A stretch of 64,000 nt of DNA. Source: Gemmatirosa kalamazoonensis. GTDB taxonomy: Bacteria > Gemmatimonadota > Gemmatimonadetes > Gemmatimonadales > Gemmatimonadaceae. The notes below the pieces were generated by a model that did not search any database, was not told the origin of the DNA, and saw only the letters and a program-made list of their open reading frames with translations. Every line of letters begins with the position of its first letter. Positions within the stretch are counted from its first letter, which is position 1. Where the stretch lies: positions 3,084,220 through 3,148,219 of the forward strand of contig NZ_CP007128.1 in the NCBI RefSeq assembly GCF_000522985.1, given 5' to 3'. The position numbers and the translations under genes were made by a program. This document shows positions 53,565 to 57,924 of this stretch, in pieces.

Positions 53565-54254
53565 TCAAGGAACGTGCGCCTCGTGGTCCACGCGTTCGAC
53601 GCGGCGCACCTCGCGGCGCTCCTCGCGCTGCACCGCGAGCTCCGCGGTGGACTCCATCGCGCGCCGCTGCAGGTCGCCCCACAGCGCGACGACGCGTTCG
53701 GCGAGCACGGCGGGCGTGCCGTCGTTGTCGATCACGACGTCGGCGCGCGCGCGCTTCAGCTCCGCGGGCATCTGCGCGGCGATCATCGCCATCGCGTCGG
53801 TCTCGCGCAGCGCGCGATCGCGGACGAGCCGCTCGAGCCGCACCGCGCGCGGCGCGTCGACGAGCACCACGACGTCGAACTCGTCGACGAGCGTGCGCTC
53901 GAACAGCAGCGGGATGTCGCACACGACGACCTGGTCGCCGCGCTCGTGCGCCGCCGCCACCGCCTCGTCGCGCAGGCGCGCGACCTCCGGATGCACGATC
54001 GCGTTCAGCGCCTCCAGCTCGGCGGGATCGTGGAACACGCGCGAGCGCAGCGCGCCGCGGTCGAGCATCCCATCGGGTGAGAGCACCTCGGAGCCCCACC
54101 GCGCGACGATCCGCTGGAAGGCGGGCGTCCCCGGCCGCACCGCGTCGCGCGCGAGCAGGTCGGCGTCGATGATGGTCGCCCCCTGCGCGGCGAGCAGGCG
54201 GGAGACGGTGGACTTGCCGCTGGCGATGTTGCCGGTGAGCCCGACGAGTAGCAT
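53565..54254 (-). CDS. coaE: dephospho-CoA kinase
   Basis: Last step of CoA synthesis. 229 residues from ATG 54254 (MLLVGLTGNIASGKSTVSRL). P-loop GNIASGKST (about 8-16), substrate region TIIDADLLARDAVRPGTPAF, and VVVCDIPLLFERTLVDEFDVVVLVDAP. The C terminus carries a 25-residue charged extension (REERREVRRVERVDHEAHVP). An upstream in-frame ATG would add nine residues. Standard length otherwise. Confidence 0.95.
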   Translation of the reverse strand: MLLVGLTGNIASGKSTVSRLLAAQGATIIDADLLARDAVRPGTPAFQRIVARWGSEVLSPDGMLDRGALRSRVFHDPAELEALNAIVHPEVARLRDEAVAAAHERGDQVVVCDIPLLFERTLVDEFDVVVLVDAPRAVRLERLVRDRALRETDAMAMIAAQMPAELKRARADVVIDNDGTPAVLAERVVALWGDLQRRAMESTAELAVQREERREVRRVERVDHEAHVP

Positions 54255-54357
54255 GGCAGTCTCTCCGGCCGCCGTCATCACGGCGGCAGTGGGGTCGGTG
54301 GAACGCGCCTAAGCTAGGGGTGCCCCTCCGATCGTCAACCCGCGAGACCGCCTCTGT

Positions 54358-54384: not shown

Positions 54385-54996
54385 CTAGATCAGTTTGGTC
54401 TGCGCGTCGGACGGCTGCGGCACCTGATGGCAGGCGCGGCACCGGGCCTCGTACGAGTCCGCGGCGCCGACCATGATCGTCGGCGAGTCGTAGGGGGCGG
54501 GGCGGCCGGCGATGAGGCGCTGGTTGCGGCTCGCCGGCGCTCCGCACAGCACGCAGATCGCGTGGAGCTTGTCCACCGACTCGGCGACCGCCATGAGCTG
54601 CGGCATGGCGCCGAACGGCTCGCCGCGGAAGTCGGTGTCGGTGCCCGCGAGGATCACGCGCCGTCCGCGCTCGGCGAGCGTCGTCGCGACGCGCACGATG
54701 CCGTCGTCGAGGAACTGCGCCTCGTCCACCGCGACGACGTGCGCGAGCGGATCGAGGCGCAGCAGCAGCTGCTCCGACGTGTCGATGGGCACCGCCTCGA
54801 CCGTGCGCTGATCGTGGCTCGAGACCGCATACACGCCGGCGTAGCGCGCGTCGAGGTGCGACTTGAAGACCTGCACGCGCTTGCGTGCGATGACCGCGCG
54901 GCGCACGCGCCGGATGAGCTCCTCGCTCTTGCCGCTGAACATCACGCCGGCGATCACCTCGATCCACCCGCCGGACGTCTGGAAGCCGTCGCCCAC
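54385..54996 (-). CDS. tdk: thymidine kinase (type II)
   Basis: Phosphorylates thymidine for salvage. 203 residues, GTG start. P-loop [14 protein letters not shown] (17-30), DEAQF catalytic segment ([16 protein letters not shown]), lasso loop [19 protein letters not shown], and zinc-finger cysteines in [14 protein letters not shown] and CRAC. It starts six bases after the degenerate-helicase gene, so they are cotranscribed. Confidence 0.94.
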
Positions 54997-55002
54997 GATC
55001 GC

Positions 55003-56832
55003 TCAGCTCTCGTCCTGGTCCATGGCGTCGCCCTCGGGCGCACGATCGGCGGCACGGTCGGCCGCGCGATCGGCCGCGCGATCGGCGTCGGCCTCGCCGA
55101 CGTCGCGACGCGAGTTGCGCAGCCGCTCGGCGCGCGCCGCCCACTCGTCGCGCTGCTCGGCGCGCTCGCGCACGCCGCGGTCGTCGGGCGCACCGAAGCC
55201 GCGCGGACCATCGCGCCGAGCGTCGAACGCACGACCGCCACCGCCGCCGCCACCACCGCCCCGCCGCTCGCCGCTGCCGCGGCGCTCCGGTGCGCCCCGC
55301 CGGTCGCCCGCCGGCGCGCGCCGCTCGCCGGCGCCGCCGCCGCTGCCACCCGCGCCGCGCTCGCGCTCCTGCCTAACGGCGGCGCGTCGGCCGCGGATGG
55401 AGATGCCGTTCACCTTCTCGATCACGCGCGCCGCGTCGGCCGACGCGACCTCGACGAGCGAGAACGCGTCGCGCACCTCGATCTTGCCGATGCGATCGCT
55501 CGAGATCCCGGCCTCACCCGCGATCGCGCCGACGAGATCCCCTGGGCGCACGCCGTCCTTGCCGCCGACGCTGACGAACAGCCGCGTCGTGCCGCTCGTC
55601 GATTCCGCCGCCGGCGCGGAGGCGCCGCTCGCCGCGGGCACGCTCGCCGAGGCCCGCCGCGCGCGCTCACGCTCGAGCAGTCGCACGGCCGCGGCGGCGA
55701 GCTGCACGCCGTCGTACTCGTCGAGCAGCGGCTCCAGCGCGACCAGCTCGCGGTGCGGCACGCCCGCGTCGAGCACGAGCCGCAGCTCGGCGCGCAGCGC
55801 GTCGTCGCGGCCGCGCGCGGCGCGCGTGTGGTCGGGGAGGGCGAGCGGTGTGATGGCGCCGCCGGCGAGCGCGCGCAGCGCCTCGAGCTGCCGCGGCTGC
55901 GCGAGCGCGACGATCTGCGCCGGCCGTGCCGTCGCGATGCGGTCGAGCACCGCACGGTCGGTCGGCACGTCGAACAGCACGACGAGCGACACGTTCTCGG
56001 CGAGCGTCGGGTCGGCGCGCACCACGCGCACGTCGGGGCCCGACGTTGCCGCCGCATCGTCAGCGGACGGCTCGCCCGGGCCGTAGCCTAACGCGCGCAG
56101 GGTGCGCCGCGCCTCGGCGTCGGACGCGTCGCTCGTCACGACCACCGTCGCCGACGGTGGGTCGAGCTCGTCGAGCACCCGACGCAGCGCGGCGGGACGC
56201 GCGGCGCTGGTCACCGGGAGGTACGACAGCGCGACCGCGCGCGGTGCCGCGCCCCCCGCCGCCGGAGCGACGCGGCGCGGCCGGCGCAGGTGGCGCTCGA
56301 TGAGCGCCTCGACGTCGGGTGTCATCTCCGTGCTCACGAGCACGCGCGCCGCATCCTTCGGGATCTCGGCGAGCACGGTCTCCAGCTCCGCCGCCGCGGG
56401 CGCGTCGAGGATCGCGTCCGCCCACGCGAAGATCACCGTGCGCACGGCGTCGAGCTTGAGGGCGGACGAGCGCACGAGCGCCGCGAGCGCGTCGGGCGCG
56501 CCGGCGATCGCGGGCGGCGCGCCGACGCGGGCGAGGCGCGCGACGCGCTCGGCGCGCGTCACGGGCACGAGCGCGGGACGCGACGCGGGATCGTCGCGCA
56601 CCGTGAGCGCCGCGCTCGCGACGGCCAGCGCCGTCTCCGCATCCGGCGTCACGACGAGCAGCTGCGTGCCGGCGGCGCCGCGATCCACGCGCTCGAGCGC
56701 CGGCGCGAGGAACTGGGGGATGAGCCCCCAGTCGTGGGGGAGCGTGTACACCACGTTCTGGCTGCGCGACGCGCCGGTCGCGGCAGACGCGGCAGACGCG
56801 GCATCTCGCTCGTCGGGTTGCTGCTGGTCCAC
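55003..56832 (-). CDS. degenerate DEAD-box helicase-like protein with DbpA-type RNA-binding domain and RG-rich tail
   Basis: 609 residues from GTG 56832 (GGAG seven bases upstream). The two-domain RecA-like layout of a DEAD-box helicase is traceable: LLVVTPDAETALAVASAAL (motif Ia region), APDALAALVRSSALKLDAVR (the GTPgR/motif Ib region), VIFAWADAILD (residues 133-143, where VLDEADRMLD is expected) and VLVSTEM (where SAT is expected). But there is no Walker A GxGKT, and DEAD reads AWAD, so ATP hydrolysis is unlikely. Residues 417-488 are an intact DbpA-type RRM (LFVSVGGKDGVRPGDLVGAI, VEVASADAARVIEKVNGISI). An Arg/Gly-rich tail with ADRAADRAADRAADRAPEG ends it. Probably an RNA-binding pseudo-helicase. 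Confidence 0.75.
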   Translation of the reverse strand: MDQQQPDERDAASAASAATGASRSQNVVYTLPHDWGLIPQFLAPALERVDRGAAGTQLLVVTPDAETALAVASAALTVRDDPASRPALVPVTRAERVARLARVGAPPAIAGAPDALAALVRSSALKLDAVRTVIFAWADAILDAPAAAELETVLAEIPKDAARVLVSTEMTPDVEALIERHLRRPRRVAPAAGGAAPRAVALSYLPVTSAARPAALRRVLDELDPPSATVVVTSDASDAEARRTLRALGYGPGEPSADDAAATSGPDVRVVRADPTLAENVSLVVLFDVPTDRAVLDRIATARPAQIVALAQPRQLEALRALAGGAITPLALPDHTRAARGRDDALRAELRLVLDAGVPHRELVALEPLLDEYDGVQLAAAAVRLLERERARRASASVPAASGASAPAAESTSGTTRLFVSVGGKDGVRPGDLVGAIAGEAGISSDRIGKIEVRDAFSLVEVASADAARVIEKVNGISIRGRRAAVRQERERGAGGSGGGAGERRAPAGDRRGAPERRGSGERRGGGGGGGGGRAFDARRDGPRGFGAPDDRGVRERAEQRDEWAARAERLRNSRRDVGEADADRAADRAADRAADRAPEGDAMDQDES

Positions 56833-56934: not shown

Positions 56935-56957
56935 GTGCGCGAATTATAGCCGCGCAC
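56935..56957 (-). promoter_or_regulatory. consensus -10 box inside a 7-bp inverted repeat
   Basis: On the minus strand TATAAT (56948-56943) sits in the loop of GTGCGCG (56935-56941) / CGCGCAC (56951-56957). No good -35 is visible. Transcripts would start about 104 bases before the degenerate-helicase gene. Overlap with a weaker + strand box (CTGTCA / AATTAT) towards the gene at 57086 is possible. Confidence 0.4.
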
Positions 56958-57085: not shown

Positions 57086-57649
57086 GTGCGTGACTCTGAC
57101 GCGATGCCCAACGCGCTCTCCGGACCACGCAACCGACGGCGCCTCACGAGCGTCACGTTCGCCGTCGCGCCGCACGACGACGTCGCGGCGCCGGTGCGGT
57201 TCCGCTGGGACGCCGACACGGAGATCCTGTCGGCGAGCATCGTCGACCGCCGGGGAGGCGGCAGCGTCGCGACCACGGTGGAGCTCGAGGGCAACGATGG
57301 CTCGTGGGTCACGCTCGAGCTGCGTGCGGGGCGCCTGTGCGGGATCGAGGTCGCCGTGTGGCCGCCGGTGAAAGCGCGCTCGATCCTCACGCCGCCGAGC
57401 GTCACGACGAGCGGCCACGCGACGCTGCCGAGCGCCGTCCTCGGCGCGACGATCAGCGACGTGGAGGTGGACACGCTGCTGGCGGCGGAGTCGGACCGGC
57501 TCGAGCGCACGTTCCATCTGCGCGTCGGGCAGCCGCGTCGCTCGCGCGCGGTGCGCGTGGGGCAGAGTATCTTGCTGGAGCTCGACGACGCCGATCAGCT
57601 CGCGGGCCTCTGGCTGCTCAACGTTCCCCCCGTGCCCCTGCACTCGTGA
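57086..57649 (+). CDS. uncharacterised 187-residue protein
   Basis: GTG start at 57086 (VRDSDAMPNALSGPRNRRRL). A predicted soluble protein rich in beta strands, in two parts. The N-terminal part (20-100) includes FRWDADTEILSASIVDRRGG and VTLELRAGRLCGIEVAVWPP. The C-terminal part (120-180) includes ISDVEVDTLLAAESDRLERT and ILLELDDADQLAGLWLLNVP. No signal peptide. I do not recognise a family. It couples to the RAM-domain gene downstream through GTGA. Confidence 0.65.
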   Translation: MRDSDAMPNALSGPRNRRRLTSVTFAVAPHDDVAAPVRFRWDADTEILSASIVDRRGGGSVATTVELEGNDGSWVTLELRAGRLCGIEVAVWPPVKARSILTPPSVTTSGHATLPSAVLGATISDVEVDTLLAAESDRLERTFHLRVGQPRRSRAVRVGQSILLELDDADQLAGLWLLNVPPVPLHS

Positions 57650-57924
57650 TCACGACGATCGTCCTCATGAAGGCGGAGCCGAAGACGCTCACGCAGGCCG
57701 CGACGCGCATCGCGGGATTCGAGGGCGTGCAGGAGGTCTACTCGGTGTCGGGCGAGTGGGACCTCGTGGCGATCGTGCGCGTGACCGAGTACGAGAAGAT
57801 CGCCGACGTCGTGACGCACCAGATCGCGAGCGTGCCCGGCATCGAGCGCACGATGACGCTCACCGCGTTCCGCGCGTACTCGAAGAAGGACCTGGAGCAG
57901 GCCTGGGACATCGGCGTCGAGTAG
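57646..57924 (+). CDS. stand-alone Lrp/AsnC ligand-binding (RAM) domain protein
   Basis: 92 residues from the GTG in the GTGA overlap. The whole protein is a RAM domain: VITTIVLMKAEPKTLTQAAT, GVQEVYSVSGEWDLVAIVRV, IADVVTHQIASVPGIERTMT. It lacks the DNA-binding helix-turn-helix of Lrp/AsnC regulators. Such proteins bind small molecules, often amino acids, as oligomers and may modulate full-length Lrp proteins. Ends at palindrome 57924-58008. Confidence 0.85.
   Translation: MITTIVLMKAEPKTLTQAATRIAGFEGVQEVYSVSGEWDLVAIVRVTEYEKIADVVTHQIASVPGIERTMTLTAFRAYSKKDLEQAWDIGVE

Follow-up and report, generated by a model that had tools for sequence, protein, structure and literature searches.

What kind of protein is encoded by a gene that has the outline of a DEAD-box RNA helicase, an open frame and none of the catalytic motifs of these enzymes? 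The question is raised by a locus of the soil bacterium Gemmatirosa kalamazoonensis, located in a window (i.e., the whole stretch of DNA that was analysed) of 64,000 nucleotides, G000:C2:3084220-3148219, where G000 designates the genome of the window. The answer that we favour, and that we regard as probable, is an ancient DEAD-box-derived pseudohelicase that would bind RNA as a dimeric scaffold or chaperone, independently of ATP. The features of the locus are collected in Table 1. The frame is uninterrupted over its 609 codons, as the sequence-only reading of this DNA had stated, with a stop codon at 55003-55005 and no internal stop in the 609-residue product.

Table 1. Features of the pseudohelicase locus (positions in the window; residues of the encoded protein in brackets)
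Feature	Position	Strand	Basis
Pseudohelicase gene	55003..56832	minus	Uninterrupted ORF, GTG start, 609 codons and stop; dN/dS 0.08-0.15 in close orthologue pairs
RecA-like domain 1 (26-190), without Walker A, DEAD, SAT	56263..56757	minus	pLDDT mostly >85; VIA Z ~22 to single RecA1 domains
Walker A position, reads PHDWGLI (32-38)	56719..56739	minus	Alignment to intact paralogue
Motif II position, reads AWAD (136-139)	56416..56427	minus	Sequence, alignment, motif table
Motif III position, reads STE (167-169)	56326..56334	minus	Sequence, alignment, motif table
RecA-like domain 2 (197-335), motifs V and VI lost	55828..56244	minus	VIA Z ~14 to RecA2 of Hera, YxiN, DbpA and CshA; motif table
Predicted helical dimerization domain like Hera/CsdA/CshA (336-392)	55657..55827	minus	Foldseek of the RecA2+helices model; residues 355-388 most conserved
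DbpA-type RNA-binding domain (417-487)	55372..55584	minus	Pfam PF03880; pLDDT ~96
Arg/Gly-rich, probably disordered tail (489-609)	55006..55368	minus	Composition
tdk, thymidine kinase, next operon gene	54385..54996	minus	ORF; follows the pseudohelicase in nearly all f1-f3 loci with enough flank
coaE, dephospho-CoA kinase, conserved downstream	53565..54281	minus	ORF and synteny
TATAAT, possible -10 box of the operon	56943..56948	minus	Sequence

Hydrolysis of ATP in DEAD-box proteins requires the Walker A motif, the DEAD sequence of motif II and the arginines of motif VI. A search of the 609-residue protein for GxGK[ST] found none, PHDWGLI standing in the Walker A place, and the AWAD and STE readings of motifs II and III were confirmed at their residues. 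Indeed, the loss is wider than the sequence-only reading claimed, as the motif table indicates that motifs Q, Ia, Ib, V and VI, all missing from its list, are also gone. Set against what characterizes a DEAD-box enzyme, the protein thus retains two RecA-like domains and lacks Walker A, the DEAD motif II and the arginine-finger motif VI. Since the three missing elements are needed for hydrolysis, catalysis is very unlikely; the protein is very likely a pseudoenzyme, and we infer from its motifs that it has no ATPase activity. It also combines two of the properties by which pseudohelicases are recognized (PMC9539457), namely non-functional helicase motifs and a helicase fold, the latter in the predicted model; as to the remaining one, a biological role in a protein devoid of ATPase and unwinding activity, such a role is supported indirectly, by dN/dS and by conservation.

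The relatives of this gene were sought in 150 genomes of the phylum and sorted into family-level groups, where f1 is the family of the window, f2 and f3 belong to the same order, f4-f7 to other orders of the same class, and f9 to another class. A strong match to the pseudohelicase profile was found in 52 of the 53 f1 genomes (the last, G130, shows only intact helicases), and the gene is also present in f2, f3 and f4-f7, with a few genomes lacking it. The six f9 genomes displayed only intact helicases or weak partial matches. Scanning genome contigs with the single protein gave no match, and a tighter family alignment retrieved 30 loci, all titled Gemmatimonadota, its patterns being narrow and hence uninformative on other phyla.

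Structure prediction bears out the two-RecA layout proposed earlier. The AlphaFold2 model of the full-length protein, built with 31 sequences, reached a mean pLDDT of 85.6, with values above 85 for RecA1 and most of RecA2 and of ~96 for the DbpA domain, and its pTM of 0.54 leaves the relative placement of the domains uncertain. Both RecA folds are present in this model, so that the absence of a RecA fold, named beforehand as an argument against the layout, did not arise. The best Foldseek matches of the full model are DbpA (1.1e-18) and CshA (9e-17); VIA-align superposed it on CshA with a Z of 23.9 over 287 residues (rmsd 7.2), and matched single RecA1 domains with Z ~22 and rmsd 2.2-3. At the sequence level, phmmer aligned residues 34-389 to CshA (1.4e-13). 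Note that the Pfam profiles gave a divided result: DbpA was clearly detected, whereas DEAD, over residues 41-173, remained below its cut-off (18.9 against 26).

A second model, restricted to RecA2 and the helices that follow it, was predicted with a pLDDT of 85.7, and its ten best Foldseek matches are all chains of Hera, CsdA or CshA over ~200-220 columns; among them is 5gi4, which we take to be CsdA (its entry title reads DEAD-box RNA helicase). The VIA alignment of this second model ended at the end of RecA2 and did not cover the helices, so the support for a dimerization domain comes from Foldseek and from the phmmer alignment, which runs through residue 389 of the protein. A small hydrophobic helical dimerization domain is common to Hera, CsdA and CshA (PMC7721647). 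Judged by fold and sequence likeness, the pseudohelicase carries after RecA2 the helical domain that marks this dimeric subfamily; the domain thus seems to be retained, and the protein would form dimers. In addition, conservation among the DbpA-bearing f1 members peaks in the core of these helices (residues 355-388), with a mean pairwise identity of 0.52 compared to 0.48 for the DbpA domain, 0.38 for RecA1 and 0.34 for RecA2.

The DbpA-type domain of the window's protein is strongly detected, with 85.8 bits against a gathering cut-off of 25.6 (PF03880, 2.1e-24), and it keeps the I-G-x-I of the guanine loop, compared here with the YxiN guanine-loop residues (PMC3695512). The earlier statement that this domain is well conserved holds for the protein itself, and the weight given to the domain calls for correction, since several f1 relatives have lost it and end in an Arg/Gly-rich tail with a net positive charge. 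Pseudohelicases without DbpA domain and with a terminal Arg/Gly-rich tail include, among others, L013, L015, L017, L020-L022, L026, L083, L089 and L103. A scan of the f1 genomes G006, G012 and G016 found no DbpA domain anywhere in the genome, and ~25 genomes of f2, f3, f4, f5 and f7 have one Pfam DbpA domain each, that of the pseudohelicase (coordinates compared by eye). Thus, in some lineages the gene can do without a DbpA domain of its own, and in others without a DbpA-type paralogue. Where the DbpA domain is lost, the RecA core, the dimerization helices and the Arg/Gly tail are kept; common to the family are the RecA pair and the predicted dimerization helices, to which an Arg-rich tail is added in the members inspected. 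The tail of the window's protein is Arg/Gly-rich by composition, as previously described (27 R and 26 G of 121 residues), yet it holds 27 D/E and is consequently not net basic in this species; the RNA affinity that the sequence-only reading ascribed to the tail does not follow from this composition. It should be noticed that the protein is not a DbpA orthologue, a candidate ruled out by its motif loss and by the NCBIfam DbpA equivalog NF008744 (87.4 against a cut-off of 524 bits).

The genome of the window also carries an intact DbpA-domain DEAD-box paralogue (C2:1946062) with GTGKT, DEAD, SAT and HRIGRTGR. In this paralogue (L003, G000:C2:1944562-1948728), the helicase core and the DbpA domain lie in different frames, with a GGGGGCCCCCCCC run between them; both the run and the frame change are located between about L003:2800 and 2960, and the change could be genuine, stem from slippage or reflect an error of sequencing. 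A quick IQ-TREE analysis (short search, 42 pseudo-sequences sampled, some rows of unusual composition) placed all 42 pseudo-sequences in one clade (SH-aLRT 100), which adjoins the intact DbpA-domain paralogues L003, L081 and L130 (support 91), apart from other DEAD-box helicases.

This paralogue is the basis of the main rival explanation, in which the pseudohelicase would heterodimerize through the shared dimerization domain with the intact enzyme and modulate or titrate it. Pseudoenzymes are known to regulate active relatives (PMC9539457), and the dimerization helices, which are conserved more than any other segment, can also be aligned in the intact paralogue. However, not every genome offers an intact partner with a DbpA domain, given the ~25 genomes in which no Pfam DbpA domain lies outside the pseudohelicase; another helicase could take its place, and on balance we consider this explanation unlikely.

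The extent of motif loss was measured on 123 distinct aligned sequences, from which 15 (intact helicases or a fragment of such a helicase) were set aside, leaving 108 relatives in seven family-level groups. Motif VI (HRxGR) is absent from all 108, with the alignment of motifs V and VI being uncertain owing to deletions; GK[ST] is lost in 106 and kept in two (L080 and L082, both f6), DEAD is lost in 107 and kept in one (L124, f7), SAT is kept in one, and motif Q in 21, distributed over f4, f5 and f6. The loss is class-wide and old. No orthologue with intact motifs, which would have pointed to a recent decay, was found among those examined in f1-f3, and in the other orders single motifs are all that persists, namely Walker A in f6 and DEAD in one f7 genome. 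The Walker-A-bearing f6 sequences fall inside the pseudohelicase clade, beside f4, which argues for several separate losses of Walker A and not for a single one.

These survivors differ in what they keep. L080 (G054:C10) and L082 (G071:C222) have a full Walker A, GSGSGKT and SAGSGKT, together with DGAA or DGAS at motif II and no motif VI; by their sequences, they are possible nucleotide binders without hydrolysis. L124 (G142:C1:1278975-1280483) displays the reverse pattern, with a perfect DEAD and GAGSGHE at Walker A.

A second alternative would be that nucleotide is bound in a remodelled pocket and acts as a switch without hydrolysis, a reading in favour of which stand the two f6 Walker A sequences and the 21 relatives with motif Q. 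We regard it as improbable, since no examined member of the window's order (f1-f3) retains Walker A or motif Q.

Regarding the neighbourhood, tdk starts 6 bp past the stop codon of the pseudohelicase, and the order pseudohelicase, tdk, coaE, gcvH is found in nearly all f1-f3 loci with enough flank. The sequence-only reading had placed the gene and tdk in one operon behind a consensus -10 box: the operon is conserved and the TATAAT is present, whereas the promoter scan found no -35/-10 pair, the hexamer lacking a -35 partner. Upstream, a divergent pair on the plus strand, formed by an uncharacterised ORF (57086-57649) and a short ORF resembling an Lrp/AsnC effector domain (57646-57924), lies beside the pseudohelicase in many f1 loci. 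The linkage to tdk, coaE and gcvH is limited to the order; the neighbourhoods examined in other orders differ, some lying near an aminotransferase-like ORF. As the surroundings change in this way, operon partners were dropped as a functional clue, and no function is drawn from them.

In close orthologue pairs, dN/dS is 0.08-0.15 for the pseudohelicase and 0.01-0.06 for tdk in the same pairs; the pseudohelicase is thus under purifying selection, with a looser constraint than that of a core enzyme. The disappearance of every catalytic motif and the faster evolution of the RecA domains relative to tdk might suggest a helicase gene that decays towards loss; this reading is rejected, because it is contradicted by this selection, by intact frames in 52 of the 53 f1 genomes and throughout the class, and by the conserved operon. 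Together with the class-wide and old motif loss, these results support the earlier view of an evolved non-ATPase.

For the dimeric scaffold or chaperone that we favour, the following course may be proposed. The gene would have arisen, probably, by duplication of a Hera/CsdA-like helicase bearing a DbpA domain, and would have been passed down vertically through the class; the arginine-finger motif VI would have been lost early, and Walker A and DEAD later and to differing degrees by lineage, while the RecA pair, the helical dimerization domain, usually the DbpA-type domain, and the Arg/Gly-rich tail would have been kept. Motifs Ia and Ib, through which a RecA core normally touches RNA, are lost; the RecA core would therefore provide contacts between proteins and set the geometry of the dimer, leaving the binding of RNA to the DbpA domain and the tail. 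The ATP-free dimer would most likely hold together two RNA segments or RNA-bound partners. In the lineages where the DbpA domain and its guanine-reading loop are kept, ribosomal RNA is a plausible target, although the related domain of Hera reads a different part of that RNA; the members are unlikely to share a single fixed rRNA target, since several f1 relatives have no DbpA domain. Further points against the scaffold are that the tail of the window's species is not net basic, that the relative placement of the domains is uncertain, and that the f6 relatives that keep Walker A may still bind nucleotide.

Several known systems share parts of this architecture. In Hera, CsdA (DeaD) and CshA, a helical dimerization domain comes after the two RecA folds, and Hera and CsdA also have a DbpA-type domain (PMC7721647, PMC3695512); they are active ATPases with all motifs, whereas the window's protein has none. 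DbpA and YxiN bind RNA through a domain that belongs to the Pfam family found here and whose guanine-loop residues are conserved, but are again active ATPases. Among pseudohelicases, the eukaryotic Utp25/Def has a conserved DEAD-box fold with lost catalytic motifs and an RNA context; unlike the window's protein, it belongs to the SSU processome, has an N-terminal disordered region and no described DbpA domain, and its function was tested by mutation (PMC9539457). The PriA of Deinococcus radiodurans is a bacterial helicase with degenerate motifs kept over a lineage, for which assays showed no ATPase or unwinding activity (PMC4504706), but it serves in the restart of DNA replication and belongs to an SF2 family other than the DEAD-box proteins.

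Utp25 and this PriA were the only two proposed pseudohelicases in a 2022 count (PMC9539457). Our literature search, whose coverage omits most subscription papers, found no earlier class-conserved bacterial DEAD-box pseudohelicase and nothing relevant on helicases of Gemmatimonas or Gemmatimonadetes. Pseudohelicases are thus already known as a small kind. The full proposal, to which we give about an even chance, is a class-wide DEAD-box pseudohelicase family with a visible order of motor death (the arginine finger at first, then Walker A and DEAD, each on its own) that now works without ATP as a dimeric RNA chaperone or as a platform for ribosome assembly. If true, the family would have no precedent among bacterial DEAD-box families in the literature searched. 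A motor-less bacterial DEAD-box family under purifying selection, with its fold and a predicted dimerization domain retained, would allow the role of the DEAD-box scaffold to be asked directly; since intermediates survive, with Walker A in f6 and DEAD in one f7 genome, the route by which a pseudoenzyme arises is open to experiment.
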